64,000 bases of DNA from Bedellia somnulentella (taxonomy: Eukaryota; Arthropoda; Insecta; Lepidoptera; Bedelliidae). Position numbers and translations under genes: made by a program. Each line of letters opens with the position of its first letter. The stretch's first letter is position 1. This document shows, in pieces, positions 1,005 through 55,874 of the stretch. The stretch spans positions 3,794,501 through 3,858,500 of the forward strand of contig OY755197.1 of assembly GCA_963576735.1 (NCBI GenBank), in the 5' to 3' direction. The notes under the pieces are model-generated. The model did no database searches, had not been told where the DNA came from, and saw only the letters and a list, made by a program, of their open reading frames with translations.

Positions 1005-1317
1005 CTAAAATAAAAACGGACTTAATATTTAACAACTTATATGTTAAAAAGTAGTGTTAGAGATATTTTAAAGATATTTTATACAGACAAACAAAGTACA
1101 AGATCGTAAAAAATATAGCCTCAAATTCAGAATTGAATTGAATCTATAAGCCAATGTCAAATTGGGTATTATTTGTAGAAAAGACATCAATTAATTATAC
1201 CTACAAATTAGTAGGCAACCATGCAAGAAATGATTCGCTTTGTTTAAGTATATTTATCATATAACATTATGTATAATATAAAAGTTTCTTGCAAATCATA
1301 GCTTTATTTATACTTAC

Positions 1318-1980
1318 TCAAATTTCTCAGTCTGAATGCGACTACTTTCGTCTGCACCCCAGCATTGTTGAGCAGCGTCAGGTTCCTCGCACTCCTAGGA
1401 TATTCGTCCATACTGAGATCGCTAGGAAACACATTCATGCTTTTGACAACCGACGACGACGGTATGCCCACAACCATTGCCGTTTCTATATTATGTTTCC
1501 CTTGCTCATAGTACATCACGTACGAAATGGATGATGCACTTTTATGAGGAAACGGCGGAGAAGACTTCTTCACGATCTCTTTCGTTTCATCTTTTCTTGT
1601 GTCATTCGCAGTCTCTATCGGCATCTCTTGCCGTCTCTTTCTATGTCTATGAGAATATTTTATGTCTCGTTTCATTCTATCGCTAAGCACATCTGACGCG
1701 TATTCGTTGTTGTAAAAATCTCTAAAAGATGATTGGTATTCTTGGTCTTGCGGGGTGTCGGACATTACGTCTATTGGTCTTTTGGATACCGCGTCATTCG
1801 CTGGTTGGTCGGATAGGATCGGGTCTCTCGGTTTGTATTCGGGTATCTTCGGCGGGTCAGGTTTTGGTTCGGGGACGATCGGCCGGTTGTGCAGCATAAA
1901 GGTGGTGGGGGGAGCCCATGATAGGTATATCTCATCAGCTGTTACTCTGATTGCCGTTAGATTTTGTGGCGCGGACGGAA
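1318..1980 (-). CDS. FN3-domain receptor-like protein, exon with long basic insert
   Basis: Large coding exon of the same minus-strand gene. It starts after a ctattttccag acceptor with PSAPQNLTAIRVTADEIYLSW, the A-B strands of an FN3 domain with the conserved tryptophan. It ends near LRNL at a GTAAGT donor. Between the B strand and the apparent C strand (SYVMYYEQG) lies an insert of roughly 120 residues. It is rich in proline and charged residues and contains a run R-H-R-K-R-R, a good furin-type processing motif. A split FN3 domain with a basic cleavage motif is compatible with a Sevenless-like receptor, but no kinase is visible here, so the name is withheld. Phase at the start requires one base from the preceding exon, which fits the signal-peptide exon at 13050-13146. 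Confidence 0.75.
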
Positions 1981-2704
1981 CTGGAAAATAGAAATATTTG
2001 ATTAATAACTTACTCCAATTAAAAGTTTAGGGGCTGTTAAAATCGGTACTCTAAAACCAGGTCACGAAAATTTCACGAGAAGTTGAGTTATATCAGCAAA
2101 TCAGTGTCAGTACTTCTGACACCCCATCCCGTTCGGTATATACGGTAATAATGCCTTAAAAAATCTAACTTCCTCTTACCATTCAGCAAGTCATCAAAAT
2201 AAATACCGAATTATATTCATAGTCAAACCTATTTATAGCTATATTGCATTACATTGTAGTCTTATAGTAATAAAAATACCAGTTTTTATTACGTCGTTGG
2301 AACTGTTTGCAACGCACTGCACAGGGAGCTAATGTAGGAGTATCTGGGACATCATTTATTTATTTATTTACGGAAAACAAACAGCTTTAAAACAACAATT
2401 AGCAAAAAACAGTAAAAATTAAAACATAGCCAAAAACAGTTTTCACATATTGGTAACGAACATGTGCTTGAATTTATGGATCCAAAAATTTTGGATTGAG
2501 TTTGGGATTCAGCCAAATATTATTGAATGTGCATTGTTTAGCATTTATTCTGCCAATGCCTTTAGTAAATTGTTGTAATTTTGCTAATGACTTAAATACC
2601 GTAAGACCGAAAAGCAACTTTATGATGAAGTGTTATGTATTCTTCGTTTAATATACTAAGGGAAACTAATTATTTCATGTAGTATGCCGTTCCCGAGTAA
2701 ATGT

Positions 2705-42200: not shown

Positions 42201-45200
42201 TTTATGCAAAATACAGATCAATATATCAATATCAATAATATCAATAAATTTTATTAAGCATAAAGTTTACAATGGTACATCGGACTTATAGATGGTATAT
42301 CGTACAGATACAAAATTAGAAGTTACTTTATGATCTACAAATGCCAACATAGTATTGAAAGTAATACACGTACTATGTTGAGCTTAATTTATAATCTAAT
42401 AAATAATAAGAATGTATAAATACTATTGGGAACTATCTCCGGTCCGGTCCGGCAGTACCACTTCTTGCAGTGGAAGGATTTCGCCGCCCCGGAACATACG
42501 CATTCCATATTGGCTTTTATTAAGGTATTGCAGCATATAACATAGATATGTAAGTTGTAATCATTATGTAGTGTTAAAAGCAAGAAACGAGAAGCATTCC
42601 GAATTGTCTCAGACATTGGATCATTTTATACATATTTTTTACAAAATATGGAATTAAGCTTTTTTGATCTTGATTGAAAACAAACTGAATTTCATTGTTC
42701 ATAAATTCGTAAGATTTCATATACTGACCCATTCTTTCAGACATTAGATTGCTGCAATTGGGCTAAATTTTAAAACCTCTTTTCCCTTGCCCTCCGTCTC
42801 ATTTACGCACAGAAAATCCATATTGAATTGATTTAACTATTATACCTGCTAATAAAATAACCTAATTTCCCCCTCAGCGTGTAAACGAAGCTCACGCCCA
42901 GCTATCCTGTCGTCCACTAGTAGTCCATTGCTCAGCCGGCGTGGGCAGAACAGGAACGTTGGTAGCGTTGCACTGCCTCATACAGCAGCTGACGACTGAG
43001 CAGCACGCGGCTGTGTTCAGTACGGTGGCCGAGCTGAGGAGGCAGCGGAACTTCTTGGTGCAGTCTTTGGTGAGTTTAGATGTTACTAGAGAGATTTTCG
43101 ATGTGTTTTCGATTACTAAAAAAGCTGCAACAAAAGAACAGCGGTGAAACACGTTGAATTCGACTTTAAAATAAAAACAGAAAGTGCCAATAGGTTATGA
43201 ATGAGTTTGTATTCTGCTCTCTAGCGGACCTGGATTGGACAAGGAAAAACATGGTTCAGTCTTTTACATACACACATATACTCAGGCCATTAGCTTTCAT
43301 TGGGGTAGACTGTTTAGATACACACATTAGATACACACATATAGGTACGTGTTACATAAAGGAATTTCCTGGTGCATTCTTTGGTGTTTAGATGTTATAA
43401 GGGAATTTTTGAAATGTTGATCCCATGTAATACTGCTATACTTGGAATGGAAAACAAACTACTATGAAGTACTGGAACTAAGCTGCAGCAAATAAGAAAG
43501 ATATAGCAACTTGATATGTTCCTCATACAGTCTTGGTAAGTGACTTGATTCGCTTCTAGATTTAAATATGACTAGTGGGTAAACCTGGCGCGACTCGACG
43601 TCGCGTCCAATAAAATGAGTTTATTTTGTAATTTTCCGACCAATCACAGCGCAGCTCTTTTGAATTTCTAGTGATATTTTCTAATTGGCCGGTTTGAAAA
43701 AAATCCGACCAATCACAGCGCATCTCTGATCGACTAAAGTTTGCGCGCGCTTATGACACTCAAGCAAAGTCTATGGGCTAAAATCGAAACTTTGAAATTC
43801 TGTAACTATTAACTTAATCCAGTTACTTCAGATGTCTGTTTTCTGATTTTGTGCACACCACGGCCGCGAACTGTACAAAACGATACCTGAACCAAATTTC
43901 TAGCTTAACTCATCGCGTCACAGGCTTCCGGGCAAGAAAGAGGCTTACAGTAATAATATATAAAGATTTTCAAGTGCAAAGAAACCAAGTCAATCAAGGT
44001 CATGCATCTATATTCAGCTCTGTAGTGGAGCTGTGGGGATAAGGAAATTTCTACGTTTAATATTTTATGAGTACCTCAAAATACTACAGTGGCGAATTGT
44101 ATGCTCCAACTAGTTACTTAAAGTGTAGTAAGTAAACGTGTAATTAAAAATACCCCATAGCAATCTTCAATACTTCTTCTTCGTACAGGTTCTGAGTACA
44201 ATCCTTGGTGATCCAGTAAATATGCCTCGGATGGCGAAATAATCCAAATAGGCTATATCTTAGTCTGAAACCAAAATGAAGAAGTACTTCATGCAGTTTT
44301 TAGAATAAAGTTTTAATATTATTTCATAAGTTAATTTTTTAACTATTTTTAACTTAAACTTCCAGAAACAATACATCTTCGTTTACCGCGCGCTTGTCGA
44401 GTACGCCCACTACGGCGATACTGAGATTCCGGCGTCGAAACTGAAAACTGCGGTAGACCGATTGAGGAATACACCGGAGGGGGCTGATAAGTGTCTTATG
44501 GAACATGAGTTTGAGGTTAGTATGTCGTATGTTTTGATTTAATTTTGCATATTAAGACTTAACAGAAAACAATCGAATGATAACTTAATTCGCATTCATG
44601 CTTTACAGTTACATGATTTCAACGGATTTTATAATAACTATCTTAAAATATAAATGAATTCAATAAATTTTATATATTGTTAGAGTATATTATGTATCAC
44701 GGACTAAGTTTTATTTTTTTATTTGGGTACTGCTTGTATGAACTTTGATTAGGATTCTTTTCATTGTGTATCCCACATTTTCTAAGGTACGTGGGTAGCC
44801 GATGGATGAGGGCAGCACAGGATCGGTCGTAGTAGAGATATTTGGGGGAGGATTATATCCATCATTGGCGTCTATTGGCTGATGAAATATTTTTTGTTGA
44901 AAATTTCAATGACAGTTGTGGGGACTGTACCTAAGTTGTTTTGCTTTAATTTTTAAACAAACTGCTGCTTACGAAAAAAGCGCAGAAATATGGCCCTGCT
45001 AGGTTCACAGAATCTTCAGCTTCAGTCTATATAAAATATTTGTTATTATTGAAGTACTCGGATATTGTCGTTTGCCTTGGTTGGGTTTGCAATTTCTAAT
45101 GAGATATATTCTAGATTTAGCTGTCTATTTTTTATAGCACGTCATATATCTAGTCACAACAATTAAACTAATAAATACAATATTCCTCCCCAGAAAATAA

Positions 45201-48200
45201 TTAACAGTCCTCTCCCGGAGATAGTAAAAACCTCGACCGCCGGCGAAGAGGTCCGAAACAAGAATCGAAGTTCGGACTGCGTGCCCTACGACAGGAACAG
45301 AGTGTTCCTGGCACCCCTGACCGGGAAGGATTTCTCTACTTATATCAATGCGTCTTTCATTGAAGGTTAGTTAATATAAATACTGTAATAAAAATTGCTG
45401 TGTAGTGTCGGCTTAGAATAACACTACCCCATTCCTTCCGGTGGGTGTACGTAAGAGGCGACTAACGGTATTGGGGCTTTAAAGGGATTTTTGGGCGATG
45501 CGGTTGGAGACCCATCACCAACAACCTTTATTCCACCATCTTTTTCCCACGCAACTTCCAAAAGTGGCTGAGGAATTTCTGATTCCCTAGCTCTGGCTAA
45601 CCCTTCAAGGGATTCATAGCCGTGATTATATGTATGTATGTAATAAACAGTGTCGTCTTAGAGATAATAAAGACAGCTAATGAGGATGTCTATAACAAGA
45701 ATCGAAGTCCGGACTGCGTGCCCTACGACAGGAGTAGAGTGTTCCTAGCACCCCTGACCGGGAAGGATTTCTCTACTTATATCAACGCGTCTTTTATTGA
45801 AGTTGAGAACACCAAATAATTGCAACACTACGTTAAACTTGGTGTATAATTTCTCTCCTATGGGCAATTGTTGGCAATTGATCAGTCATCGACATAAAAT
45901 TCCAAATATTTTATAGTTTTTTAGGAGGATATTACTTTCAATAATGAAACTGAAAATTATACTTCCGTTCTCAAACATAATTTTTAAGAGACATATTTAT
46001 TAGAAATACCTGAACAAACATGATCCTGTCCTGCATATTTTTTATTGACATATAAAAAACTACTGAATAATTATAATTGCGCTGCGATTTTGATACAACG
46101 TAAATGTGAGGTATCCTATATGTTTGCTTTATATCAGTTATAGCATTAAAATATGTTATACAATAATAGGTTTCTGAATTCTATTATATATCTTATGCTA
46201 TGTATTTGTCTTGAATGCATGTACCATATGTTAATTGTTTGTGTATTCTAACTCAACATTTATCTATTCGCAGCATACGACCACACAGAAGGTTTCATAA
46301 TAACGCAAGATCCGCTGCCGAATACGATAGGCGATTTCTGGAGAATGGTCGCCGAGCATAACGTCTCTACTATAGTCATGTTGAGTGAGGTATGAAATTA
46401 ATAGAAAAGAATATCTTTATTTGCCTTTATAACACGGTACAATAAGTTTTTTTAGTTCAATAATATAGACAATTCGGTATACTATTAAAATATCTTTTCA
46501 AACATTATTTTAAAATCATAATTTATCAAAGCAATGTCAAAGTTTTTATATTATAAATATGTTAAATTAAAAATAACAATATGTCATGAGCAGTCTGTAA
46601 TGCAATATATTAATATTTTGAAACATTTAATTAATGCAACCAACATTATCAATTTTAAAATAGATACGTTTTTTCTGTCCTTAAAGACTAGACTAGATTC
46701 TTCCGACATATGCAACCATAAAGTATAAAATACTTTTTTTATTCTGCCACTCTCGCAAGCCGTACAGTAATCTTTTCCCAAATTAAGTTCGAAAAGTGGC
46801 TGAGGAATTTCTTATTCTGAAGCTCTGGCTACCTTTTCTAGAGATTTGTAGCAGTGAGTACCATTCCCACCTAACTGGTCAGTAGCCATTGCCAAGCAAT
46901 AACTAGTAATTTGTTTATGTCCATGAAGTTGTGTCCAGATGACGAACTTACGAGCCAGTAAAAATTAAATAAAAAGAGGAAATAAATTTTAAAAATATTC
47001 CTAACATATTGTACCAAATTTCATCAACCATCGTCCTTACAGGCTAACCTTGTGATAAAATATCATGTTAAGTCGTCTGCAGTTATAGGATATTTGTGCA
47101 TAATCATTTAATTAATTTTTCATTCTTACCAACAGCTCGGCGAAGGCAAATGCCCTAGATACTGGGACGACGAAACGGCCCACTACGATCATATATCAGT
47201 ACATTATGAAGAGAGCGAGTCGTGTCCCTATTACACGAGACGGCAGTTTAGAGTTACTAATAACAAGGTAATATTACGTTTCTTTATATACTTTATTTCA
47301 ATATTTTACTACACATAACTCATAAAAGATCAATTTAGACGAATCTTAGTAGAAAGTATTCAGCGCACGACGTCATATATCAGTGCATTACGAAGAGAGC
47401 GAGTCGTGCCCCTATTACACGAGACTGCAGTTTAGAGTTACTAATAACAAGGTAATATTGCGTTTCTTTATATACTTTATTTCAATATTTTACTACACAT
47501 AACTTATAAAAGATCAATTTAGACGAATCTTAGTAGAAAGTATTCAGCGCACGACGTCATATATCAGTGCATTACGAAGAGAGCGAGTCGTGCCCTTATT
47601 AAACGAGACTGCAGTTTAGAGTTACGAATAAATCTAAAATATCAGAAGTTATATATGAACTTTATTTCGACATCTTTTCTAAACTTAACTTATAAAAGAG
47701 CAATTTAGAAGAATCTCTCTTCCGCTTAACTTTAAAAAAAGGGTTTTAGCGCATTATATCATATATCAGTGTAATACAAAGAGAGGGAGTCGTTTCCGTA
47801 CTTCCTAGTTACTTATAACAAGGTTATGTTAAACTCTTTTATATCTTTTTTCACAACTGAACTCAGCAGTAACAAGATCTTGCTTAGAGTGTGCTTTAGT
47901 CACTGATTCCTCTTCAGTGGACCAACATAACTTTTGTATCAATTTAAAATCCAAACTTTCTCGCCGTATATCTCTTAGTCATGTGGGTTTCTCACGATGT
48001 TTTACGTCACCGTTAAAAACTAAGATGAATTAACCATACATAGGACTTTAGAAAAGAAAAATTTTGTGTGAGTCTAACTCGCCTCTCTGCATAATAAGCG
48101 CATGTTCTAACCACTGAGCTATCTTGGTTGTTGTACTATCCAATAGTATAACAAGACCATGCTTAGAGTGAGTCTTTAATTCGCTTATGCTGATTTAATT

Positions 48201-51200
48201 GACCAATCTAAAACTCGTGCACTTACAACTCTTTTCGCTTAATCCATCAATTTACTATCCAACAGTATAACAAGACCTTGTTTACGGTGGGTCTTTAATG
48301 TCATTCCAATTCAATTGAACAACCTAAAACTGAGGCATTAAAGACTCTTTACACTCTCTGTACCATTACATACATACATTTATTTATTTATTTTTATAAG
48401 GAACATCAACAGCGACATAATAAGTAATAATACACAGTTAATAATAGAAATCAAGTAAGGCCAATAACAGATGTTCACAGATGTACAGAAAACATATCTA
48501 ACAATAATCTTGTTTTTAGGTTACATTTGATTTTCAACACATGTACATATATACTCACACATACATATTCTCACGGCCGAAAATCCCAAAAAGGGGTAGC
48601 CAGAGCTTCAGAGCTAGAAACTCCTCAGCCACATTTGGAAACTAATAGGGGAGAAGATGGAAAAATAAAGTATCGTTGGTGATGGGTCTCCAACCGCATC
48701 GCCCAAAAACCTCTTAGGAAGCCCCACACCCTTAGTTGCCTCTTACGACACCCTCGGGTAGAAAGTGGTAGTGACATTCTAAGCCGGCACTACAGGGCAA
48801 AGCCGGCACTCTGTACCATTCTAATGTTATAATGTGTATTAATCCCGTGTTTCCGTTTCACAGAGTTCGTGCTCGTCGCTAGTGTCGCAGCTGCAGTACC
48901 ACGGCTGGCCGACGGCGCGCGGCCACGTGCCCGAGGTGACGCGCGGGCTGGCCGAGCTGGCCGACGAGGCACGGGAGCGGCGCGTCATGCTCGTGCATTG
49001 CCAGTACGTATTGTACTTACATCTAGAATGTTGCGTGGTACAAACAGTAGAGATACATACATATACTCACTACATACACATTATACCGACACGTGCCCGA
49101 GGTGACGCGCGGGCTGGCCGAGCTGGCCGACGAGGCGCGGGAGCGGCGCGTCATGCTCGTGCATTGCCAGTACGTATTGTACTTACATCTAGAATGTTGC
49201 GTGGTACAAACAGTAGAGATACATACATATACTCACTACATACACATTATACCGACACGTGCCCGAGGTGACGCGCGGGCTGGCCGAGCTGGCCGACGAG
49301 GCGCGGGAGCGGCGCGTCATGCTCGTGCATTGCCAGTACGTATTGTACTTACATCTAGAATGTTGCGTGGTACAAACAGTAGAGATACATACATATACTC
49401 ACTACATACACATTATACCGACACGTGCCCGAGGTGACGCGCGGGCTGGCCGAGCTGGCCGACGAGGCGCGGGAGCGGCGCGTCATGCTCGTGCATTGCC
49501 AGTACGTATTGTACTTACATCTAGAATGTTGCGTGGTACAAACAGTAGAGATACATACATATACTCACTACATACACATTATACCGACACGTGCCCGAGG
49601 TGACGCGCGGGCTGGCCGAGCTGGCCGACGAGGCGCGGGAGCGGCGCGTCATGCTCGTGCATTGCCAGTACGTATTGTACTTACATCTAGAATGTTGCGT
49701 GGTACAAACAGTAGAGATACATACATATACTCACTACATACACATTATACCGACACGTGCCCGAGGTGACGCGCGGGCTGGCCGAGCTGGCCGACGAGGC
49801 GCGGGAGCGGCGCGTCATGCTCGTGCATTGCCAGTACGTATTGTACTTACATCTAGAATGTTGCGTGGTACAAACAGTAGAGATACATACATATACTCAC
49901 TACATACACATTATACCGACACGTGCCCGAGGTGACGCGCGGGCTGGCCGAGCTGGCCGACGAGGCGCGGGAGCGGCGCGTCATGCTCGTGCATTGCCAG
50001 TACGTATTGTACTTACATCTAGAATGTTGCGTGGTACAAACAGTAGAGATACATACATATACTCACTACATACACATTATACCGACACGTGCCCGAGGTG
50101 ACGCGCGGGCTGGCCGAGCTGGCCGACGAGGCGCGGGAGCGGCGCGTCATGCTCGTGCATTGCCAGTACGTATTGTACTTACATCTAGAATGTTGCGTGG
50201 TACAAACAGTAGAGATACATACATATACTCACTACATACACATTATACCGACACGTGCCCGAGGTGACGCGCGGGCTGGCCGAGCTGGCCGACGAGGCGC
50301 GGGAGCGGCGCGTCATGCTCGTGCATTGCCAGTACGTATTGTACTTACATCTAGAATGTTGCGTGGTACAAACAGTAGAGATACATACATATACTCACTA
50401 CATACACATTATACCGACACGTGCCCGAGGTGACGCGCGGGCTGGCCGAGCTGGCCGACGAGGCGCGGGAGCGGCGCGTCATGCTCGTGCATTGCCAGTA
50501 CGTATTGTACTTACATCTAGAATGTTGCGTGGTACAAACAGTAGAGATACATACATATACTCACTACATACACATTATACCGACACGTGCCCGAGGTGAC
50601 GCGCGGGCTGGCCGAGCTGGCCGACGAGGCGCGGGAGCGGCGCGTCATGCTCGTGCATTGCCAGTACGTATTGTACTTACATCTAGAATGTTGCGTGGTA
50701 CAAACAGTAGAGATACATACATATACTCACTACATACACATTATACCGACACGTGCCCGAGGTGACGCGCGGGCTGGCCGAGCTGGCCGACGAGGCGCGG
50801 GAGCGGCGCGTCATGCTCGTGCATTGCCAGTACGTATTGTACTTACATCTAGAATGTTGCGTGGTACAAACAGTAGAGATACATACATATACTCACTACA
50901 TACACATTATACCGACACGTGCCCGAGGTGACGCGCGGGCTGGCCGAGCTGGCCGACGAGGCGCGGGAGCGGCGCGTCATGCTCGTGCATTGCCAGTACG
51001 TATTGTACTTACATCTAGAATGTTGCGTGGTACAAACAGTAGAGATACATACATATACTCACTACATACACATTATACCGACACGTGCCCGAGGTGACGC
51101 GCGGGCTGGCCGAGCTGGCCGACGAGGCGCGGGAGCGGCGCGTCATGCTCGTGCATTGCCAGTACGTATTGTACTTACATCTAGAATGTTGCGTGGTACA

Positions 51201-54200
51201 AACAGTAGAGATACATACATATACTCACTACATACACATTATACCGACACGTGCCCGAGGTGACGCGCGGGCTGGCCGAGCTGGCCGACGAGGCGCGGGA
51301 GCGGCGCGTCATGCTCGTGCATTGCCAGTACGTATTGTACTTACATCTAGAATGTTGCGTGGTACAAACAGTAGAGATACATACATATACTCACTACATA
51401 CACATTATACCGACACGTGCCCGAGGTGACGCGCGGGCTGGCCGAGCTGGCCGACGAGGCGCGGGAGCGGCGCGTCATGCTCGTGCATTGCCAGTACGTA
51501 TTGTACTTACATCTAGAATGTTGCGTGGTACAAACAGTAGAGATACATACATATACTCACTACATACACATTATACCGACACGTGCCCGAGGTGACGCGC
51601 GGGCTGGCCGAGCTGGCCGACGAGGCGCGGGAGCGGCGCGTCATGCTCGTGCATTGCCAGTACGTATTGTACTTACATCTAGAATGTTGCGTGGTACAAA
51701 CAGTAGAGATACATACATATACTCACTACATACACATTATACCGACACGTGCCCGAGGTGACGCGCGGGCTGGCCGAGCTGGCCGACGAGGCGCGGGAGC
51801 GGCGCGTCATGCTCGTGCATTGCCAGTACGTATTGTACTTACATCTAGAATGTTGCGTGGTACAAACAGTAGAGATACATACATATACTCACTACATACA
51901 CATTATACCGACACGTGCCCGAGGTGACGCGCGGGCTGGCCGAGCTGGCCGACGAGGCGCGGGAGCGGCGCGTCATGCTCGTGCATTGCCAGTACGTATT
52001 GTACTTACATCTAGAATGTTGCGTGGTACAAACAGTAGAGATACATACATATACTCACTACATACACATTATACCGACACGTGCCCGAGGTGACGCGCGG
52101 GCTGGCCGAGCTGGCCGACGAGGCGCGGGAGCGGCGCGTCATGCTCGTGCATTGCCAGTACGTATTGTACTTACATCTAGAATGTTGCGTGGTACAAACA
52201 GTAGAGATACATACATATACTCACTACATACACATTATACCGACACGTGCCCGAGGTGACGCGCGGGCTGGCCGAGCTGGCCGACGAGGCGCGGGAGCGG
52301 CGCGTCATGCTCGTGCATTGCCAGTACGTATTGTACTTACATCTAGAATGTTGCGTGGTACAAACAGTAGAGATACATACATATACTCACTACATACACA
52401 TTATACCGACACGTGCCCGAGGTGACGCGCGGGCTGGCCGAGCTGGCCGACGAGGCGCGGGAGCGGCGCGTCATGCTCGTGCATTGCCAGTACGTATTGT
52501 ACTTACATCTAGAATGTTGCGTGGTACAAACAGTAGAGATACATACATATACTCACTACATACACATTATACCGACACGTGCCCGAGGTGACGCGCGGGC
52601 TGGCCGAGCTGGCCGACGAGGCGCGGGAGCGGCGCGTCATGCTCGTGCATTGCCAGTACGTATTGTACTTACATCTAGAATGTTGCGTGGTACAAACAGT
52701 AGACATACATACATATACTCACTACATACACATTATACCGACACGTGCCCGAGGTGACGCGCGGGCTGGCCGAGCTGGCCGACGAGGCGCGGGAGCGGCG
52801 CGTCATGCTCGTGCATTGCCAGTACGTATATATCATTGTAACTAAGGGTATACATTGGTCAAAAGCTGCCGCAACCCGGCATTCGCTCCCGATAGTCACA
52901 CTGCTTTGTTGAGATTTGTATGACACACCGTCTTATACGGGCGGCTGAGTGGAACGGCCTGCAAGTGACTTCAGTAGCGCTGCTCCACATTTAATAGGAA
53001 TTGCTAAATGCCGTATAATAAGGTTTGGATAACTGCCCTTTAAGCTCTGAACGTATATAATTCTATTCCAACCCTCTTTGATGAAAGATTATCTGCACCT
53101 TCGTCTGAAGCAGTTGCTACACAAGTTTTCGCTTTCCCATATGTAAATTGTCAGAAATCGTTTTTTGTAATAATCCGATGTGATGCTCCGCTGTCTGGTC
53201 TGGTAACTCATGAAAAGACTAGCTGTAGACTGTGACTCCGTACCCTTTCATAATATCACCATATTCGCTGACCACAGCTGTCTTCTGCCTTATAATTTAT
53301 TAACTCGTCTATATTTAAAACAGATACGGTACGGAACGATCAGCTATGTTCGTGGCGCTGTGCATCCTAATAAACCAGTTGCGGTCTGAGAAACGAGTGG
53401 ATCTGCTCACCGTGGCCAGGACTTTGAGGGCGCAACGAGCCAACACTATCAATACCTTTGTAAGTATTTATTTGGAGACTAGTATAATAAGTAGACTAGT
53501 ATAGTATTAATAATGTCATGGTTTTTGTGGAGTCCTTTCTTGTTAAAACTATTTCACAGAGACCGGTCCTTAAAGATACTATAAAAGTTCTCATAAACAT
53601 ATATTGTTATTTTACATTATTGTTAAAAATGTAGACTTTTTTTTGATAGTGTTATTGGGAAAATGTGCCCTCGCGAATAACATATGTTCTAATAAATAAT
53701 GGTATTTATATCAAGGCAAAGGTTTTCACATTAATATGAGTATCATGACTTGGATATGCCGATTTGTGAAAATGTTAAAAAAGTGAAGAATAGTGAAGAT
53801 GAATATAAGAGAGTTAAGAATGAGGTTAAGAAGAAAATAGAAAAGAAAAAGCGTGATCTGATAGAATGGTGTGAGAGGAAACTCTCTGATAATTTCCGGA
53901 ATAACCAAAAGTTGTTCTGGAAATATATCCGGAAAGAAAAGGGAGTTTCCCAAAACACGAGAGTGAATGTTGTGAGAGATGAACAGGGTGAATTGGCGAC
54001 GGATGAAAGTAGCATAAGACGAGTATGGAAGAACTATTTTGAGGGACTCTTTGAAAAAGAGGATTCATCCATTTCTTCGCCAATCAGCAGTAATGTTGAT
54101 TGGAACGACGTTATGGGTGACTTTAGTGACAGTGAGATCAGTATGGAAGAAATAATGAAAGCAATGAAAAGTATGAAACTAGGGAAAGCGGCAGGGTATG

Positions 54201-55874
54201 ACAGGATAAACACTGAAATGCTGAGGGCTGGTAAAGGGGTGGTGGCTTCCTGGTTGTACTTCCTTTTCCAAAAATGCTGGTCGAGTGGCAAAGTGCCACA
54301 AGACTGGTGCAAAGCGGTAATTGTGCCTTTATATAAAGGAAAGGGGTCACACCAGGAGGCTAGAAACTACCGTGGAATTAGCCTACTCAGCATTGTCGGT
54401 AAATTGTATGCAAAGGTTTTGATTGAAAGAGTGATGAATGAAACGGATGATAAAATTTGGGATGTGCAAGCAGGATTTAGAAAGGGAATGGGATGTATGG
54501 ACCAAATCTTCTCTTTAAGGAGCATCACCGAAAAGTTCTTAGCTAAGAACCGAAAGGTGTATTGCTCCTTCATTGATTTAGAGAAGGCGTATGATAGGGT
54601 GGTAAGAAAGTGTTTATGGGAGGTGTTATCCAAGTTCGGCTTGGGGAGCCAACTTATACGTGCACCGGTATCACTCTATGAGGATTCCAGTGCATGTGTG
54701 AGAGTAAAAGGGGAAAATACTGACTGGTTCGGGATCTCTCGGGGTGTCCGACAGGGTTGTGTAGCTTCCCCGTGGCTCTTCAATTTGTTCATGGATGACT
54801 GTTTAACAGAGTTGCGTGAAAGTGATTATGGATTGAGAATGGGTGGATTCATCATTAAATGCCTCTTATATGCCGACGATCAAGTGCTACTTGCATCATC
54901 GGTGGAAGAGCTGCAAGAGATGATGAATATTGCATGTGCGTCTTTTGAAAAAAAGGGAATGAGGGTGAATGTGGATAAAACAAAAACTATGGTTTTTGAG
55001 AGAGAAGTGAATATGACCGAATGCGTGATTGAGATTAATGGTAAGAAAGTGGAACAAGTGAAAGAGTTTGTATATTTGGGAAGTTTGTTTACTAGGGATG
55101 GAAAGTGTGATGAAGATATCGAGAGAAGAGTGAAAAAGGGTAATGCGGTAAATGGAGCACTGGATAGTCTAATGTCTAGTCAGTCGGTGTCTGAAAAGGC
55201 CCGAATGGCTGTGCATGATGCTGTCCTCGTTCCTACGCTTATGTATGGCAGTGAATGTTGGGTGTGGCAGAAGAAGCATGAAAGTAGAGTGAATGCAGTA
55301 GAAATGAGATCCCTCAGAAAAGTGTGTAATGTAAGGTTATGTGATCGTGTGAGGAATGATGTGATTCGTGAAAGGTGTGGTGTAAAAGATGATATTGTAA
55401 GAAAGATAGAAAAAGGAATGTTGAGATGGTTTGGGCACATAGAGAGGATGGATGACAGTAAATTGGTGAAAGAGATATATAGAGCCAATGTGGAAGGTAA
55501 TGTTAGTAGAGGACGACCTCGGAGGACACATTTGGATCAAATAGAAAATGTGCTCAAAAAGGCAGGTGTCCGCAGTATGAAGAATAAAAGAGCATGTATG
55601 AAAAGATTGATGGATGTAAACGAAGCCAGAGAGGTTTGCCAGGATCGTACAAAGTGGCGATCGATAGTCTCTGCCTACCCCAATGGGAACTAACGGCGTG
55701 AGAATATGTATGTATGTATGTATGTATGTTAAAAAAGTATTCATGAATCTAGTTTATAGTCAAACTCTTAACTATTAGTTTTTAACATTTTTTTTATTGC
55801 AGGTACAATACGAGTTTCTATATCGTGCCATATTGAATTACGCGGAGCTCCACAACTTGATGGATGACAGCTAA
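15149..55874 (+). CDS. Ptp69D: receptor-type protein tyrosine phosphatase, Ptp69D-like (whole gene, 26 coding exons)
   Basis: Complete coding span, 4467 coding bases in 26 exons, 1488 residues; all junctions have GT/AG borders and compatible phases. Predicted order: signal peptide (1-29); Ig1 with Cys53/Cys118; Ig2 with Cys167/Cys223; three FN3 domains (about 247-560); membrane-proximal region (568-817) with R-E-K-R at 718-721; transmembrane helix (about 818-836); PTP domain D1 with [10 protein letters not shown] and catalytic Cys1137; PTP domain D2 with Cys1419 in a CX5R loop. Two Ig plus three FN3 plus two PTP domains at this length is the Ptp69D plan; other insect RPTPs differ in ectodomain make-up. 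In flies this family removes phosphate from tyrosines in growth cones during motor and photoreceptor axon guidance. D2 is probably inactive (WPT in place of WPD). Introns are crowded with repeats and partial copies of the gene's own exons. Confidence 0.88.
15237..16700. other. intron 1, first part, nothing recognised
   Basis: AT-rich intron sequence with short ATT runs near 16488. No gene-like frames. Confidence 0.4.
16712..16846 (+). repeat. family D repeat
   Basis: gctgtgggaacagcaaagat, atactggccagtataccc and tgctgctcgtgtgcaagt. A second copy is at 34348-34512. A TM element follows directly. Confidence 0.65.
16846..16960. repeat. family TM, deleted copy
   Basis: tcatgtggggattattacta at left, a fragment gggttgattcccgcctgtg of the tRNA-like part, then tttatttattctttatttat at right. 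Confidence 0.6.
17405..17540 (-). repeat. family A SINE tail fragment
   Basis: acgttcacgccgtatatcc, then ccacgttttgcttggacagt, matches the tail half of the SINE. It ends only about 45 bases before exon 2 of the phosphatase. Confidence 0.65.
17586..17724 (+). CDS. Ptp69D: Ptp69D-like exon 2 (Ig1, first half)
   Basis: Acceptor ttttcag; reads [20 protein letters not shown], then [18 protein letters not shown], giving the first Ig cysteine (Cys53) and the core tryptophans. Ends in phase 2 at AG|GTAATT within an arginine codon that exon 3 completes. Confidence 0.88.
18112..18260 (-). repeat. family B repeat, diverged
   Basis: cagccagggcttcggaataa, aatcctcagccacttttgga and acaacacccacggaaagaaa. 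Middle deleted. Confidence 0.6.
18541..18824 (+). CDS. Ptp69D: Ptp69D-like exon 3 (Ig1 end, Ig2 start)
   Basis: Acceptor tctttcag. Contains [16 protein letters not shown], the classic D-x-G-x-Y-x-C end of an Ig domain (Cys118), then the linker and the first cysteine of Ig2 (ILQCGFE, Cys167). Several N-x-T sites suggest glycosylation. Donor GTAAGT, phase 1. Confidence 0.92.
18825..20523. other. intron 3, mostly unrecognised
   Basis: AT-rich. A short SINE A-like tail (gtaattctccgaacggggtt) near 19756-19775 on the minus strand. No coding evidence in either strand. Confidence 0.35.
20524..21266 (+). CDS. Ptp69D: Ptp69D-like exon 4 (Ig2 end, FN3-1, most of FN3-2)
   Basis: The longest exon. It completes Ig2 with the core tryptophan (VKWLKR) and [10 protein letters not shown] (Cys223). 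It then encodes FN3-1 ([13 protein letters not shown], with [15 protein letters not shown]) and most of FN3-2 ([24 protein letters not shown]). Acceptor ctatttcag, donor AGG|GTGAGT, phase 0. Confidence 0.95.
21612..21806 (+). CDS. Ptp69D: Ptp69D-like exon 5 (FN3-2 end, FN3-3 start)
   Basis: Acceptor ctaccatacag. Begins [15 protein letters not shown], finishing FN3-2 with three cysteines, then [15 protein letters not shown] and [19 protein letters not shown], the first half of FN3-3 with its tryptophan. Donor GTAAGT, phase 0. Confidence 0.9.
22059..22165 (+). CDS. Ptp69D: Ptp69D-like exon 6 (FN3-3 middle)
   Basis: Acceptor cccttacag. Reads [19 protein letters not shown], then [16 protein letters not shown], and ends AG|GTTAGT in phase 2. 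It continues the C strand begun in exon 5 (KGYS-IELTG). Confidence 0.85.
22190..22580. repeat. sequence with repeated CATCATGATGTGGCC-type ends
   Basis: Motifs catttcatgatgtggccaac (22240s) and ccacatcatgatgtggccaa (22534-22553) bracket about 290 bases; related tcatgaaat motifs recur at both ends. Possibly a MITE with subterminal repeats; borders unclear. Confidence 0.35.
23333..24947. repeat. 1.6-kb segment bounded by inverted repeats
   Basis: ctttgactatgaacactata (23333, 28 bases) and its inverse tatagtgtccatagtcaaag (ending 24947) bound the segment. Short AACCT/TTAGG-like runs lie outside both ends (23252-23266 and 24950-24962). The interior has no transposase. Confidence 0.4.
25088..25240. 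repeat. family TM, deleted copy
   Basis: aataaagaataaataaagga, cacaggcgggaatcgaacct and cctgagtcgaaatttttctt around a shortened tRNA-like core, ending attagtaataatgaggtttt. Confidence 0.6.
26090..26520. repeat. A-rich low-complexity tract
   Basis: Dominated by agataaaa- and aaaaataaa-type sequence, resembling old poly(A) tails of retroelements. Small frames here reflect base composition only. Confidence 0.5.
26883..27027 (+). CDS. Ptp69D: Ptp69D-like exon 7 (FN3-3 end)
   Basis: Acceptor ttgctttacag. Reads [20 protein letters not shown], a typical E-F-G end of FN3-3, then an arginine- and alanine-rich GC-rich linker ending PRPRWRK. Donor GTGTGT, phase 0. The exon is strikingly GC-rich compared with the flanking introns. 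Confidence 0.85.
27549..28006. mobile_element. foldback element with long diverged arms
   Basis: The left arm from GGAATTGG(T)CTAGACC to TTTGCCTATGGAATGC and the right arm (27905-28006) are inverted copies of about 100 bases. The spacer contains an RTE 3' end on the minus strand (cgttaattcccattggggta). Confidence 0.7.
27655..27705 (-). repeat. RTE 3' end fragment
   Basis: acttacgccgttaattccca, then ttggggtaggcagagactga, is the reverse complement of the 3' terminus of the RTE at 55660-55700. Confidence 0.65.
28356..29521 (+). mobile_element. Helitron remnant or non-autonomous Helitron
   Basis: The 3' end has an imperfect hairpin (ACCCGTGC, loop, GTGCGGGT at 29492-29514) followed by CTAG at 29518-29521 and a T, the Helitron terminus. 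The likely 5' end begins TC at about 28356, followed by the ACAAAGTCGCTTTCGCTG leader often seen in insect Helitrons. The interior holds the C-terminal end of a Pif1-like helicase. The exact 5' border is uncertain. Confidence 0.65.
29066..29473 (+). pseudogene. Helitron Pif1-like helicase, C-terminal fragment
   Basis: Frame reads [20 protein letters not shown], later [20 protein letters not shown] and [20 protein letters not shown], ending at TAG. The INKSQGQT and YVALSRV motifs are the last helicase motifs of the Pif1 family as carried by Helitrons. The Rep nuclease and most of the helicase are missing. Confidence 0.88.
29531..29758 (-). mobile_element. Helitron-like terminus or insect repeat in opposite orientation
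   Basis: Begins actagctgacccggcaatcg; its reverse complement ends in a GC-rich stretch and CAGCTAGT, resembling a Helitron 3' end on the minus strand. It continues with aaatcggcttagccgtttcg, a sequence common in insect repeats. Only 10 bases from the end of the plus-strand Helitron. Confidence 0.4.
29761..30017. mobile_element. Tc1/mariner-like MITE
   Basis: 257-bp element with inverted ends CAGGGTGTCCCAAGA and TCTTGGGACACCCTG, flanked by TA on both sides. Noncoding. The ends match the CAGGGTGTCCC type seen in many arthropod mariner-like elements. Confidence 0.85.
30106..30185 (+). CDS. Ptp69D: Ptp69D-like exon 8 (membrane-proximal region)
   Basis: Acceptor ttgtttcag. Reads [20 protein letters not shown] followed by GPICCYR, 80 bp, ending in phase 2. 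The [13 protein letters not shown] block marks the start of the membrane-proximal region that separates FN3-3 from the membrane. Confidence 0.88.
30360..30540 (+). repeat. family B repeat, 5' shortened
   Basis: ggcgactaagggtatatggg to tagccgtgagcatatgtatg. Confidence 0.75.
30730..30846 (+). repeat. LINE 3' end with (ATTCT)n tail
   Basis: gtacaataaagagttttcta followed by repeated ttctattctattct; the same end occurs at 62598-62620. Body not recognisable. Confidence 0.4.
30868..31115 (-). repeat. family B repeat, full length
   Basis: From atactcacggctataaatcc to ctaagccgacactacact on the minus strand. Confidence 0.85.
31353..31490 (+). CDS. Ptp69D: Ptp69D-like exon 9 (membrane-proximal region)
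   Basis: Acceptor tcttttccag. Reads [20 protein letters not shown], then [15 protein letters not shown] and [10 protein letters not shown]; donor GTAAGA, phase 2. It continues a beta-rich ectodomain segment without a recognised fold. Confidence 0.88.
31520..31775 (-). repeat. family B repeat, full length
   Basis: From catatactcacgactataa to ctaagccgacactacacggc, only about 30 bases after exon 9's donor. Confidence 0.85.
32085..32375 (+). CDS. Ptp69D: Ptp69D-like exon 10 (linker with basic processing motif)
   Basis: Acceptor atattctag. Holds a CPQC pair, a threonine/serine/proline-rich mucin-like run ([18 protein letters not shown]), an acidic stretch, then [14 protein letters not shown] at residues 718-721 fits a furin-type site and could yield a two-chain receptor; cleavage is inferred. 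Donor GTAAGT, phase 2. Confidence 0.88.
32690..32910 (-). repeat. LINE 3' fragment
   Basis: gcttcggaaggtgttcgtag and gcaacaaagaaactcttta resemble the 3' UTR of the LINE at 40820-41310 (ttcggaaggtgtt, gagaaactcgtc). Confidence 0.4.
33118..33326. mobile_element. 209-bp foldback palindrome
   Basis: Arms of about 90 bases (TTATAATTGAAACAACTATT through GCCCGACGTTTCGAAAAC) return in reverse with few mismatches around a spacer of about 30 bases. It lies 60 bases before exon 11, in intron 10. Confidence 0.85.
33387..33517 (+). CDS. Ptp69D: Ptp69D-like exon 11 (membrane-proximal region)
   Basis: Acceptor ttatttcag. Reads [20 protein letters not shown] followed by [20 protein letters not shown] and ELI. 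Contains an N-Y-T glycosylation site. Donor GTAAGT, phase 1. Confidence 0.85.
33530..33765 (-). repeat. family B repeat
   Basis: From tactcacggctataattccc to ctaagccggcactaaacgg, starting just after exon 11's donor; a short deletion near the tail. Confidence 0.8.
34121..34230 (+). CDS. Ptp69D: Ptp69D-like exon 12 (juxtamembrane ectodomain)
   Basis: Acceptor ctttctttgcag. Reads [20 protein letters not shown], then [16 protein letters not shown]. The final ILEIILQ is the start of the hydrophobic segment completed by exon 13. Donor GTTAGT, phase 0. Confidence 0.88.
34348..34512 (+). repeat. family D repeat
   Basis: cactgtgggaacagcaaaga, gtgtaccaactttgaatttg and cgctgctagtgtgcgagtga. Shares about 140 bases with 16712-16846. 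Confidence 0.65.
34792..34922 (+). CDS. Ptp69D: Ptp69D-like exon 13 (transmembrane helix)
   Basis: Acceptor aatatttgcag. Reads [20 protein letters not shown], a single membrane span, then the basic stop-transfer SRRSRK. This is followed by an internal 8-9 residue duplication ([17 protein letters not shown]). Donor AG|GTTTGT, phase 2. Three further partial copies of this exon follow in the intron. Confidence 0.9.
34813..35411 (+). repeat. 171-bp tandem array of the transmembrane exon (4 copies)
   Basis: Copies start near 34813, 34984, 35155 and 35326. Each carries the 3' four-fifths of exon 13, its donor AG|GTTTGT and the first 60 or so intron bases. Copies 2 and 3 still read [20 protein letters not shown] spans, but after a possible upstream AG the required frame meets TAA. 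Copy 4 has lost an internal segment. Confidence 0.9.
35828..36010 (-). pseudogene. piggyBac-like transposase, C-terminal cysteine-rich fragment
   Basis: Ends [20 protein letters not shown], then [19 protein letters not shown] and stop. The C-x2-C pairs form the C-terminal zinc-binding domain that recognises piggyBac ends. The DDE-type core that should precede it is deleted. Confidence 0.78.
36093..36344 (-). pseudogene. piggyBac-like transposase, N-terminal fragment
   Basis: ATG at 36344 gives [20 protein letters not shown] and an acidic serine-rich run ([20 protein letters not shown]), the usual disordered N-terminus of piggyBac transposases, then stops at SSDYF. About 83 codons. Confidence 0.75.
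36640..36930 (+). repeat. family A SINE, diverged
   Basis: Head ggtagctcatcgggaatact, then cctacaccaatgtttctttt, agctaagttgtacttggtca and a tail with acatcaggtgataac. Follows the piggyBac remnant. Confidence 0.6.
36940..37070 (+). repeat. family C repeat
   Basis: gcacgagccgtgtttaaact, agttatcgcgtgggataaa and gtatcgtatactgccatctc. Further copies at 59497-59625 and 61040-61165. Confidence 0.6.
37199..37263 (+). pseudogene. truncated copy of exon 14, acceptor side
   Basis: After ccccttcag the sequence reads [20 protein letters not shown] in the phase required by exon 13, against [20 protein letters not shown] in exon 14. The copy keeps acceptor and frame but is cut off by the SINE at 37270-37507, so it lacks a donor. 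Confidence 0.75.
37270..37507 (-). repeat. family A SINE truncating the exon 14 copy
   Basis: Reads tactcgcgtaatagagggca through ggtgtaggcccgacccggga to cattggactatcatg. It lies between the truncated exon 14 copy and true exon 14. Confidence 0.75.
37546..37687 (+). CDS. Ptp69D: Ptp69D-like exon 14 (cytoplasmic juxtamembrane)
   Basis: Acceptor ctcgttag. Reads [20 protein letters not shown], then [20 protein letters not shown] and GFQKEFE. The closing KEFE is the usual lead into a PTP domain, and the proline-rich [10 protein letters not shown] could bind SH3 domains. Phase 0 at GAG|GTACAT. A diverged copy of its 5' half lies at 37199-37263. Confidence 0.88.
38385..38540 (-). repeat. family B repeat, tail half
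   Basis: From acccacggctataaatccct to accgcatcgcccaaaaatcc. Confidence 0.8.
38882..39058 (+). CDS. Ptp69D: Ptp69D-like exon 15 (PTP D1 start)
   Basis: Acceptor gttgctacag. Reads [20 protein letters not shown], then [18 protein letters not shown] and [12 protein letters not shown]. It includes the KNRY substrate-loop motif and the DYINAN motif of classical PTPs. Donor GTATGT, phase 0. Confidence 0.93.
40349..40560 (+). CDS. Ptp69D: Ptp69D-like exon 16 (PTP D1 core)
   Basis: Acceptor atatccatag. Contains [20 protein letters not shown], then [20 protein letters not shown] and WPDEV. These are the conserved QGP...FWRM and KC..YWP motifs. Donor GTGAGT, phase 2. Confidence 0.95.
40660..40715 (+). 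repeat. RTE 3' end fragment
   Basis: gagagatttgccaggatcga and tagtctctgcctacccta match the last coding part of the RTE at 55630-55680, with a short deletion. Confidence 0.6.
40820..41310 (-). pseudogene. LINE reverse-transcriptase ORF, C-terminal fragment and 3' UTR
   Basis: Reverse strand reads [20 protein letters not shown], then [11 protein letters not shown] and a stop (40996-40998), the usual C-terminus of Jockey/CR1-type LINE ORF2. It is followed by a 3' UTR with an A-rich end. Upstream residues to about 41300 are recognisable but diverged. Confidence 0.7.
41372..41472 (+). CDS. Ptp69D: Ptp69D-like exon 17 (PTP D1)
   Basis: Acceptor aaattccgcag. Reads [20 protein letters not shown] followed by [13 protein letters not shown]. 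This is the IVR.L.V strand of the PTP fold followed by a variable loop. Ends G|GTATGG in phase 1. Confidence 0.85.
41655..41857 (+). repeat. family B repeat
   Basis: cccgcgggtgtcgtaagagg to ggcagtgagtttatgcatga, with middle shortened. Ends about 30 bases before exon 18. Confidence 0.7.
41888..42030 (+). CDS. Ptp69D: Ptp69D-like exon 18 (PTP D1, WPD-type loop)
   Basis: Acceptor catattacag. After a serine-rich loop it reads [20 protein letters not shown], then ILAFIK. W-K-D occupies the WPD-loop place, so the general-acid aspartate is present although the proline is replaced. Donor GTAATG, phase 0. A partial copy follows at 42445-42524. Confidence 0.92.
42445..42524 (+). pseudogene. partial copy of exon 18 with donor
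   Basis: Repeats the second half of exon 18 ([20 protein letters not shown]...) with few changes, mostly silent, plus donor GTATTG and the start of the intron. An AG just before TACCAC would put it out of phase, so it is probably not spliced in. Confidence 0.8.
42878..43069 (+). CDS. Ptp69D: Ptp69D-like exon 19 (PTP D1 catalytic loop)
   Basis: Acceptor ccccctcag. Holds the PTP signature [12 protein letters not shown] (Cys1137, Arg1143), then [20 protein letters not shown] and [11 protein letters not shown], the approach to the Q-loop. All catalytic residues expected of an active D1 are visible. Donor GTGAGT, phase 0. Decayed copies of its 3' part follow in the intron. Confidence 0.96.
43265..43325 (-). 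repeat. RTE 3' end fragment
   Basis: acatatactcaggccattag, then ctttcattggggtagactg. Diverged RTE terminus, in intron 19 next to the exon 19 relics. Confidence 0.45.
43361..44215 (+). pseudogene. decayed copies of exon 19 3' end and donor
   Basis: At 43361-43420 the sequence follows the exon 19 end and intron start (cctggtgcattctttggtg, tttagatgtta). A shorter match is near 43519-43540. At 43985-44060 a match to the [14 protein letters not shown] segment is seen, and another to the donor region near 44188. All are diverged and carry stops or lost donors. Confidence 0.55.
43637..43735 (+). repeat. duplicated CCAAT-containing 20-mer
   Basis: ccgaccaatcacagcgcag (43637) recurs as ccgaccaatcacagcgcat (43708), about 70 bases apart, in a stretch with CpG-rich ends. 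Could be a promoter-like element of a repeat; no transcript start is visible. Confidence 0.45.
44366..44515 (+). CDS. Ptp69D: Ptp69D-like exon 20 (D1 end, D1-D2 linker)
   Basis: Acceptor aacttccag. [20 protein letters not shown] completes D1 (QY.F.Y.A..E). The linker ends HEFE, the usual entry to D2. Donor GTTAGT, phase 0. Confidence 0.93.
45194..45365 (+). CDS. Ptp69D: Ptp69D-like exon 21 (PTP D2 start)
   Basis: Acceptor ctccccag. Reads [20 protein letters not shown], then [20 protein letters not shown] and the TYINASFIE block. K-N-R followed by serine stands at the KNRY position. Ends in phase 1 at GAAG|GTTAGT. A diverged copy lies at 45676-45802. Confidence 0.93.
45402..45645 (+). repeat. 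family B repeat, full length
   Basis: From gctgtgtagtgtcggcttag to agccgtgattatatgtatgt. It sits between exon 21 and its partial copy. Confidence 0.88.
45676..45802 (+). pseudogene. partial copy of exon 21
   Basis: Reads [20 protein letters not shown], then [16 protein letters not shown], nearly the same protein as exon 21. The donor GGTTAGT has become GTTGAG and no acceptor in the right phase precedes it. It is separated from exon 21 by a family B repeat. Confidence 0.8.
46274..46389 (+). CDS. Ptp69D: Ptp69D-like exon 22 (PTP D2)
   Basis: Acceptor tattcgcag. Reads [20 protein letters not shown], then [18 protein letters not shown]. The usual QGP has become QDP. Donor GTATGA, phase 0. Confidence 0.93.
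46755..46862 (+). repeat. family B repeat, tail half
   Basis: cgaaaagtggctgaggaatt, gaagctctggctaccttttc and gtagcagtgagtacc. Confidence 0.65.
47136..47267 (+). CDS. Ptp69D: Ptp69D-like exon 23 (PTP D2)
   Basis: Acceptor taccaacag. Reads [20 protein letters not shown], then [20 protein letters not shown] and TNNK. KCPRYW stands for the usual KC.QYWP. Donor GTAATA, phase 0. Three more partial copies follow. Confidence 0.93.
47371..47823 (+). repeat. three partial tandem copies of exon 23
   Basis: Copies at about 47371-47453, 47555-47640 and 47757-47823 (spacing 184, 184 and about 202 bases from the true exon). Each repeats [17 protein letters not shown]...FRV. The first keeps TNNK and donor GTAATA; the second has lost the donor; the last is badly decayed. 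Confidence 0.85.
47960..48130 (-). repeat. family A SINE head fragment
   Basis: Contains tcacgatgttttacgtcacc, gaattaaccatacatagga and ccactgagctatcttggttg. Diverged head half. Confidence 0.65.
48545..48805 (-). repeat. family B repeat, full length
   Basis: From tatatactcacacatacat and cggccgaaaatcccaaaaag to ctaagccggcactacagggc. It ends about 60 bases before exon 24. Confidence 0.85.
48864..49003 (+). CDS. Ptp69D: Ptp69D-like exon 24 (PTP D2 WPT loop and active-site Cys)
   Basis: Acceptor gtttcacag. Reads [20 protein letters not shown], then a charged helix and VMLVHC. W-P-T (1388-1390) replaces W-P-D, so the general acid is lost. Cys1419 is kept. Ends CA|GTACGT in phase 2. The 3' part of this exon with its donor is the first unit of the 166-bp array. 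Confidence 0.92.
48924..52829 (+). repeat. 166-bp tandem array of exon 24 3' end (about 23.5 copies)
   Basis: Each unit holds the last 80 bases of exon 24 ([12 protein letters not shown] through VHC), the donor CCA|GTACGT, and 86 bases of intron ending tataccgacacgtgcc. Units appear identical on reading, except that copy 1 has A at 48971 where the others have G and copy 23 has C at 52704. The last unit stops just after its donor. The unit length is not a multiple of three and contains no acceptor, so only the first unit can be exon sequence. Repeated 114-codon open frames here are products of the array, not genes. Confidence 0.95.
53324..53459 (+). CDS. Ptp69D: Ptp69D-like exon 25 (PTP D2 end of loop)
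   Basis: Acceptor tttaaaacag. Completes the loop as HCQYGTER (Cys1419, Arg1425), then [20 protein letters not shown] and [16 protein letters not shown]. The CX5R spacing survives but the last glycine of GxG is glutamate. Donor GTAAGT, phase 0. Confidence 0.93.
53750..55693 (+). CDS. RTE-type reverse transcriptase ORF (partial, N-terminus lost)
   Basis: Open frame of 647 codons. The first dozen codons are host intron sequence and target duplication; element sequence starts at about residue 13 ([20 protein letters not shown]). RT blocks: [43 protein letters not shown] (palm A), [19 protein letters not shown] (palm B) and [10 protein letters not shown] (catalytic YADD). The C-terminal domain has [20 protein letters not shown] and [15 protein letters not shown]. 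No stop or frameshift, so the insertion is recent, but without its endonuclease and 5' end it cannot move alone. Confidence 0.9.
   Translation: MDMPICENVKKVKNSEDEYKRVKNEVKKKIEKKKRDLIEWCERKLSDNFRNNQKLFWKYIRKEKGVSQNTRVNVVRDEQGELATDESSIRRVWKNYFEGLFEKEDSSISSPISSNVDWNDVMGDFSDSEISMEEIMKAMKSMKLGKAAGYDRINTEMLRAGKGVVASWLYFLFQKCWSSGKVPQDWCKAVIVPLYKGKGSHQEARNYRGISLLSIVGKLYAKVLIERVMNETDDKIWDVQAGFRKGMGCMDQIFSLRSITEKFLAKNRKVYCSFIDLEKAYDRVVRKCLWEVLSKFGLGSQLIRAPVSLYEDSSACVRVKGENTDWFGISRGVRQGCVASPWLFNLFMDDCLTELRESDYGLRMGGFIIKCLLYADDQVLLASSVEELQEMMNIACASFEKKGMRVNVDKTKTMVFEREVNMTECVIEINGKKVEQVKEFVYLGSLFTRDGKCDEDIERRVKKGNAVNGALDSLMSSQSVSEKARMAVHDAVLVPTLMYGSECWVWQKKHESRVNAVEMRSLRKVCNVRLCDRVRNDVIRERCGVKDDIVRKIEKGMLRWFGHIERMDDSKLVKEIYRANVEGNVSRGRPRRTHLDQIENVLKKAGVRSMKNKRACMKRLMDVNEAREVCQDRTKWRSIVSAYPNGN
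53785..55727 (+). mobile_element. 5'-truncated RTE-type non-LTR retrotransposon
   Basis: Reverse transcriptase element in the last phosphatase intron, sense strand. It ends in a (TATG)n microsatellite, typical of RTE-clade tails. The 13-base ATGTTAAAAAAGT is present at 53772-53784 and 55726-55738, a target-site duplication (a few bases ambiguous with the tail). The endonuclease half is missing, so this is a 5'-truncated insertion. Confidence 0.88.
55803..55874 (+). CDS. Ptp69D: Ptp69D-like exon 26 (C-terminus)
   Basis: Acceptor tttattgcag. Reads [20 protein letters not shown], then DDS and stop TAA, the normal QY.FLY.A..NY end of D2. Ending straight after D2 is usual for this family. Confidence 0.93.
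   Translation, partial: VQYEFLYRAILNYAELHNLMDDS

Follow-up and report, generated by a model that had tools for sequence, protein, structure and literature searches.

The gene and its donor array

The window, which is the whole 64,000-nucleotide stretch of DNA analysed, contains a phosphatase gene on the forward strand (Table 1). Thirteen exons from 34792 to 53459 join in consistent phases and encode 648 residues. The model comprises two Y_phosphatase stretches (Pfam) and is a good match to PTPRA chain 6uzt. The two phosphatase domains lie in tandem after a transmembrane segment, the latter recognised by reading only. A Loxostege sticticalis protein, named only protein-tyrosine-phosphatase, is the best relative, with 76% identity over 100% of the length. 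Proteins named 69D come next, including a Sergentomyia 69D-like protein at 52%. Judged by these comparisons, in which the closest relatives are Ptp69D proteins, the gene is a Ptp69D orthologue. Upstream exons of a putative Ig and FN3 ectodomain were found by tblastn with the Leptidea sequence P0020, and their list is approximate, being made of tblastn ranges. That the reading frame is intact speaks for a functional gene.

The exon whose end opens the array (140 bp) was labelled the D2 active-site exon in the preliminary description, and this label stands only in part. The exon does reach the Cys of the D2 signature, but it ends there, so the intron splits the signature, and it carries GWPT where WPD is expected. 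Loxostege P0001 also has GWPT. Because the WPD aspartate is replaced by Thr, the main catalytic role in the protein probably does not fall to D2.

The array occupies 3.9 kb, from 48924 to 52829, with a period of 166, 23.5 copies, and 99% matches (TRF). Its unit opens with the last 80 bases of the coding exon 48864-49003 and continues with 86 intron bases. The + strand of the window has 24 occurrences of the sequence CCAGTACGTAT, which comprises exon end and donor, spaced by 166 bases. The 166-bp unit in about 23.5 copies and the 24 identical donors in series, as first described, are borne out by these two counts. Units 2-22 (21 full units, 3,486 bp) are identical, with zero differences. Unit 1 has a single difference at 48971 in the exon part, unit 23 has a single difference at 52704 in the intron part, and unit 24 is a partial copy of 88 bp. 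Beyond the array, the intron lacks the sequence that makes up the intron half of the unit. The array can therefore be written as (exon end + insert)n + exon end. Provided that the copies are real, the zero differences among units 2-22 place the last homogenisation no more than about 2.1-3.0e5 generations ago (95% upper limit), at the insect mutation rates given in PMC10048334, 0.29e-8 (Heliconius) and 0.41e-8 (silkworm). Folding of the unit as DNA or RNA was no better than that of shuffles (z -0.63, -0.58), and a hairpin of either kind was rejected as the cause of expansion. A second source for the open frame of the unit was also rejected, as no protein-database match was found at E 0.001.

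It is unlikely that a real short array of at least 2.5 units was drawn as 23.5 units by the assembly. The sequence variants alone demand just 2.5 units, and their confinement to the first and last full units is what an assembly loop gives. However, identical inner units are also expected from recent homogenisation. Against inflation stand, too, the array's length of 3.9 kb and the contiguity of the assembly, whose 549 Mb fall into 486 contigs. Several fetched contigs exceed 10 Mb, and the window (C29:3794501-3858500) sits on a contig of 11.8 Mb. A query with the unit found no second site in the assembly besides this locus, match counts being lower bounds. The long contigs, together with the diverged sister duplications described below, make this kind of array credible.

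Table 1. Features of the Ptp69D locus (positions in the window).
Feature	Position	Strand	Remarks
Transmembrane/juxtamembrane (TM/JM) exon	34792..34922	+	
Donor-side copies of TM exon, 171-bp unit	34965..35417	+	93%, 93%, and ~80% identity; GT kept in each
Acceptor-side copy (77%) of start of exon 37546-37687	37189..37262	+	Upstream of that exon
D1 loop exon (QWKDFAAP)	41888..42030	+	
Donor-side copy (92%) of exon 41888-42030	42447..42539	+	GT donor present
Donor-side copy (80%) of end of exon 42878-43069	43361..43418	+	
Donor-side copy of exon 45194-45365	45641..45807	+	81% over 173 bp, 94% over 109 bp; dispersed element between
Donor-side copies of exon 47136-47267	47363..47853	+	94%, 79%, and 67% with growing distance
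D2 exon ending at donor 1	48864..49003	+	GWPT loop and Cys of D2 signature; orthologue match
Tandem array, 166-bp unit x 23.5	48924..52829	+	First donor 49003/49004, last 52821/52822
Head motif ACATACATATACTCAC of dispersed element, intron half of unit 1	49055..49070	+	Also in following full units
Intron remainder after array	52830..53323	+	Differs from intron half of unit
Next coding exon	53324..53459	+	Acceptor common to all 24 donors in simplest model
Last coding segment, 23 protein letters	55803..55871	+	

Reading frames and splice sites

Splicing from donor 1 to the acceptor at 53324 keeps the frame and gives an orthologue-like protein. From donor 2, translation runs into the next exon and stops about 70 bases before its end (TGA at 53387, by reading), whereas every one of donors 3-24 stops at 49269. 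Donors 2-24 all give premature stops, and therefore all uses except that of donor 1 are unproductive. This agrees with the proposals of the preliminary description that donor 1 yields the normal protein and that donor 2 shifts the frame into an early stop. The value seen there in the array as a test of donor choice is upheld. The second donors of three older edge-copy cases were translated and likewise give stops.

One acceptor before the array and one after it, as initially proposed, is still the simplest arrangement. On the acceptor matrix of the gene, the best AG within the unit reaches 0.79, below 12 of the 14 used acceptors (leave-one-out scores from -4.0 to 9.3). Judged by this score, acceptor use inside the array is unlikely, and to that extent the single downstream acceptor is probable rather than settled. 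The AG has a pyrimidine-rich context and recurs 23 bases after every donor, and 143-nt pseudo-exons could run from it to the next donor. That the units serve in this way as cassette exons, or as new introns, is nevertheless highly improbable for so weak a site. One of the two weaker used acceptors, at 38882, may be a misplaced boundary, the first base of its exon perhaps being 38873.

The donor of the array, CCA/GTACGT, ranks lowest among the 14 donors of the gene on the leave-one-out matrix (2.75, the next being 2.86), the splice-site matrix being built on few sites. It is the second weakest of 14 by U1 duplex energy.

Exon-edge copies in Ptp69D and in other genes

The array was at first treated as single, which does not hold. 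The same gene has two further donor-straddling arrays, at 34814 (171 bp x 3.1) and at 47181 (184 bp x 2.4) according to TRF, and four single exon-edge copies. Exon edges were compared with the adjoining introns by local alignment at a cut-off of z >8. Same-strand donor-edge copies were found in 5 of 24 downstream introns of Ptp69D, same-strand acceptor-edge copies in 1 of 24 upstream introns, and opposite-strand copies in 0 of 96 tests. Copies of their own edges accompany 7 of the 25 Ptp69D exons scanned, including the 24-donor exon, whose array was masked in the scan and which was added by hand. The donor side of FN3b (z 5.4) was left out of this count.

The identity of the edge copies spans at least 99% down to 67%, and falls with distance from the exon in the two older series, those of exons 34792 and 47136. 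Copy 1, not the later copies, matches Loxostege at YYTRRQF (exon 47136) and VLLGM (exon 34792). The third copy of exon 47136 contains a stop codon, and its donor is lost. Later copies sometimes keep the older state, which counts against the reading favoured below: the fourth copy of the TM exon has MIIF like Loxostege where copy 1 has MFTF, and the 45641 copy retains a Pro that is absent from copy 1. Cassette exons among the copies were considered and rejected. The 45641 copy has an open frame, yet its donor is shifted or lost (by reading), and the changes in the copies of exon 34792 are mostly at amino-acid sites (also by reading). Also rejected was the idea that intron-only local duplications are as common as those of exon edges. 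Four of 7 non-element loci in the window are donor-straddling, with binomial tails from 4e-5 to 0.008 by assumed length and region; this automatic count is post hoc, and its filter mistook both the 24-donor array and exon 45194 for element-like sequence and dropped them.

Other phosphatase genes: A search of the assembly gave 45 phosphatase-domain matches, of which 38 are in other genes. Clear edge copies accompany 4 of these 38 exons, and opposite-strand copies were found in 0 of 152 tests. Two of the four are donor-side copies in L040, and the others are acceptor-side, in L050 (61 bp x 4, with 4 acceptors) and L048. Three matches with z >8 were left out of the four, namely a 26-bp match confined to the intron flank (C356:10094), an upstream match taken as D1/D2 homology (C15:5573259), and an acceptor-side match of 32/40 (C14:12966800). 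Beyond the 38 exons, there is a 109-bp array with 9 donors in L039 and one more donor-side copy in L040. The upstream-most copy in L039 is only partial, which makes the coding copy ambiguous and counts against the reading favoured below.

Myosin, kinesin, and further genes: Myosin and kinesin gave 79 matches each. Five neighbouring repeat matches were fetched and all five have edge copies; the cases were chosen by eye, with the myosin cluster C16:12162794-12164158 left out, so no rate follows. The myosin locus L061 has 8 acceptors ahead of one exon, in a 969-bp compound repeat in which the full exon comes last. A single clear donor-side copy is present in each of L062, L063, and L065, and three are present in L064. 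L066, taken from a table that lists other neighbouring pairs as well, was rejected as an edge copy, as it consists of two diverged potassium-channel exons, and no neighbouring pair was seen among the 20 ABC matches. Eight other genes have edge copies, counting L061 and L063 as one. Donor-side copies lie downstream of the exon and acceptor-side copies upstream. The 24-donor array is the largest of the local direct exon-edge duplications met in this genome. The outward direction of the copies is partly forced by the demand for an intact gene.

Dispersed element: The intron half of the array unit contains the head of a dispersed element. Motifs of the element lie at most 100 bp from 8 of 11 duplicated exons versus 8 of 51 others (4e-4 by one-sided Fisher test, 0.002 by Mann-Whitney test), with motifs and thresholds chosen post hoc and one motif of the 24-donor exon lying inside the unit itself. 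The element also sits between two exon copies at the 45194 exon and in L065. A role for it in the origin of the copies is plausible. That an element landing beside an exon made the edge copies, either as long target duplications or through template switching, and so seeded the arrays, is possible but rather doubtful. Permutation of the head motif in the window only gives p 0.03 to 0.11, and no head motif lies within 400 bp of the TM, JM, D1-loop, and 47136 copies. Direct flank repeats are present at 8 of 73 element clusters, and only two of the 8 are exon-edge pairs; on the count of clusters, long target-site duplication was rejected as the general habit of the element. An element-driven origin is compatible with the reading favoured below, as its starting event.

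Interpretation and relation to known systems

The array is, with moderate confidence, an expanded exon-edge duplication of a recurrent class that straddles splice sites and is tolerated by exon-proximal pairing. A first duplication would have copied the exon end and donor into the intron, and unequal exchange or replication slippage would then have amplified and homogenised the unit. The upstream acceptor would pair with the exon-proximal donor by exon definition, so that donor 1 gives the normal mRNA, and the array would be tolerated because of this pairing. Donors 2-24 are probably mostly silent. Leakage to them would give premature stops and decay of the mis-spliced mRNA. The product would thus be lowered, not altered, and copy number would be a mild dose modifier at most. 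The weakness of the array donor could favour leakage, and this counts against the favoured reading.

In the donor-side cases, a conserved protein requires the acceptor of the exon to pair with the nearest donor. In L061 and L050, it requires the downstream donor to pair with the nearest acceptor. Such nearest-site pairing is the rule of exon definition, and follows from the intact genes, not from a measurement. The simplest reading of the Ptp69D copies is repeated birth, near expansion, and distal decay, in which edge copies would be born again and again, expand near the exon, and decay farther out. More tentatively, and somewhat short of probable, there may be a genome-wide class of splice-site arrays in which exon edges are copied outward into introns again and again, often from a start near a dispersed element. 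Such arrays would expand and decay in turn and be tolerated by exon-proximal pairing.

The tuning of phosphatase output through nonsense-mediated decay, raised in the preliminary description, may occur, and the human CBS repeat offers a donor-straddling parallel. A different proposal is that the number of competing donors sets the productive fraction of Ptp69D mRNA, with copy number under selection, donors 2-24 appreciably used, and their products decaying. The premature stops from all 23 alternative donors, the low matrix rank of the array donor, and the precedent of the human CBS repeat, in which lower activity is reported with more units, are consistent with it. The decay of older copies in Ptp69D, as in the third copy of exon 47136, speaks against it, and the proposal is distinctly unlikely.

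Most work on competition between identical splice sites has used artificial constructs with two sites. Here, a native gene presents one and the same donor, in an unchanged local exon context, up to 24 times, and elsewhere in the genome there are shorter series, of differing age and on either exon side. If the genome-wide class exists, it would be a natural experiment, run across the genome, in how competing splice sites are chosen. Such series could tell exon-proximal and intron-proximal choice apart in vivo and show what each added site costs in productive mRNA. If copy number varies, there would be heritable expression differences that short reads would miss.

CBS: A donor-straddling VNTR and an acceptor-side duplication are already known from CBS. 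Human CBS has a 31-bp VNTR, c.1444_1467+7(16_21), at exon 13/intron 13, with 16-21 copies and the lower activity already mentioned (PMC2630376, PMC5188458, PMC1395315). By this notation, its unit comprises the exon end, the donor, and 7 intron bases. The Ptp69D array likewise has a unit of exon end, donor, and intron start, in many tandem copies (23.5 in the assembly). In contrast, the CBS units carry substitutions and the repeat is polymorphic in people, while the 166-bp unit of Ptp69D takes in 86 intron bases, its copies are near-identical, and the genome contains many sister duplications. In CBS 844ins68, a 68-bp intron 7/exon 8 junction is duplicated, two sites compete, and the distal one is strongly favoured, giving normal mRNA (PMC2630376). 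It is the counterpart of the acceptor-side cases here, with one extra copy as against the 4 acceptors of L050 and the 8 of L061.

Intron gain and test constructs: In intron gain by tandem duplication, the duplicated segment spans an intron-exon boundary and brings splice signals with it, as it does here. There, however, the new intron is spliced, whereas the array implies none, and a candidate new GT-AG intron in it would have to use the weak AG of the unit. Duplicated-donor test constructs of Eperon and colleagues are cited in PMC8724738. Duplicated donors compete there, as they would in the array, but the constructs were designed with two sites, while the array is natural with up to 24. The intron-proximal site can reportedly win in the Eperon constructs, which would run against the exon-proximal reading. 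No genome-wide class of exon-edge arrays was found in searches of the literature on splice-site and exon-boundary duplication, which is weak evidence of absence. Compared with these systems, the apparent novelty is the recurrence of edge arrays across the genes of one genome.

Exon-edge arrays in other genes

Exon-edge copies elsewhere in the assembly (G000) lie on the donor side in a different receptor phosphatase gene (L039) and in a kinesin gene (L064), and on the acceptor side in a myosin gene (L061). Every unit of the L039 array may contain a whole small exon, and the functional copy among them is ambiguous. The myosin copies form a 969-bp compound repeat with an identity of 99.8% over 2.5 kb.

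Loci and frames
Feature	Position	Composition
Receptor phosphatase	L039 8016-8921	109-bp unit x 8.3, 9 donors
Kinesin	G000:C5:17489350-17490200	exon end, then 3 partial copies, each closed by a GTAAGT donor
Myosin	G000:C21:3030300-3034300	seven copies of the exon's own start and acceptor, upstream of the exon
Myosin pair	G000:C9:18063683; C9:18083685	nearly equal, 20 kb between them
Potassium channel (L066)	G000:C69:4128250-4128950	two adjoining diverged pore exons, 76% over 68 bp
Frame	1304-2026 (-)	240 codons
Frame	29015-29473 (+)	152 codons
Frame	53735-55693 (+)	652 codons, open
Juxtamembrane coding sequence	34842-34922	short internal duplication (15 protein letters, not shown)

Matches of other kinds

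The myosin pair on contig C9 is probably a recent gene duplication, and the potassium-channel pore exons are probably alternative exons.

Frames in the window

The minus-strand frame has, by reading, an FN3-like start and is perhaps a second receptor gene. The 152-codon frame resembles a Pif1/Helitron helicase end, and the frame within the last intron of the Ptp69D orthologue resembles a non-LTR reverse transcriptase. The internal duplication lies in the Ptp69D orthologue itself.
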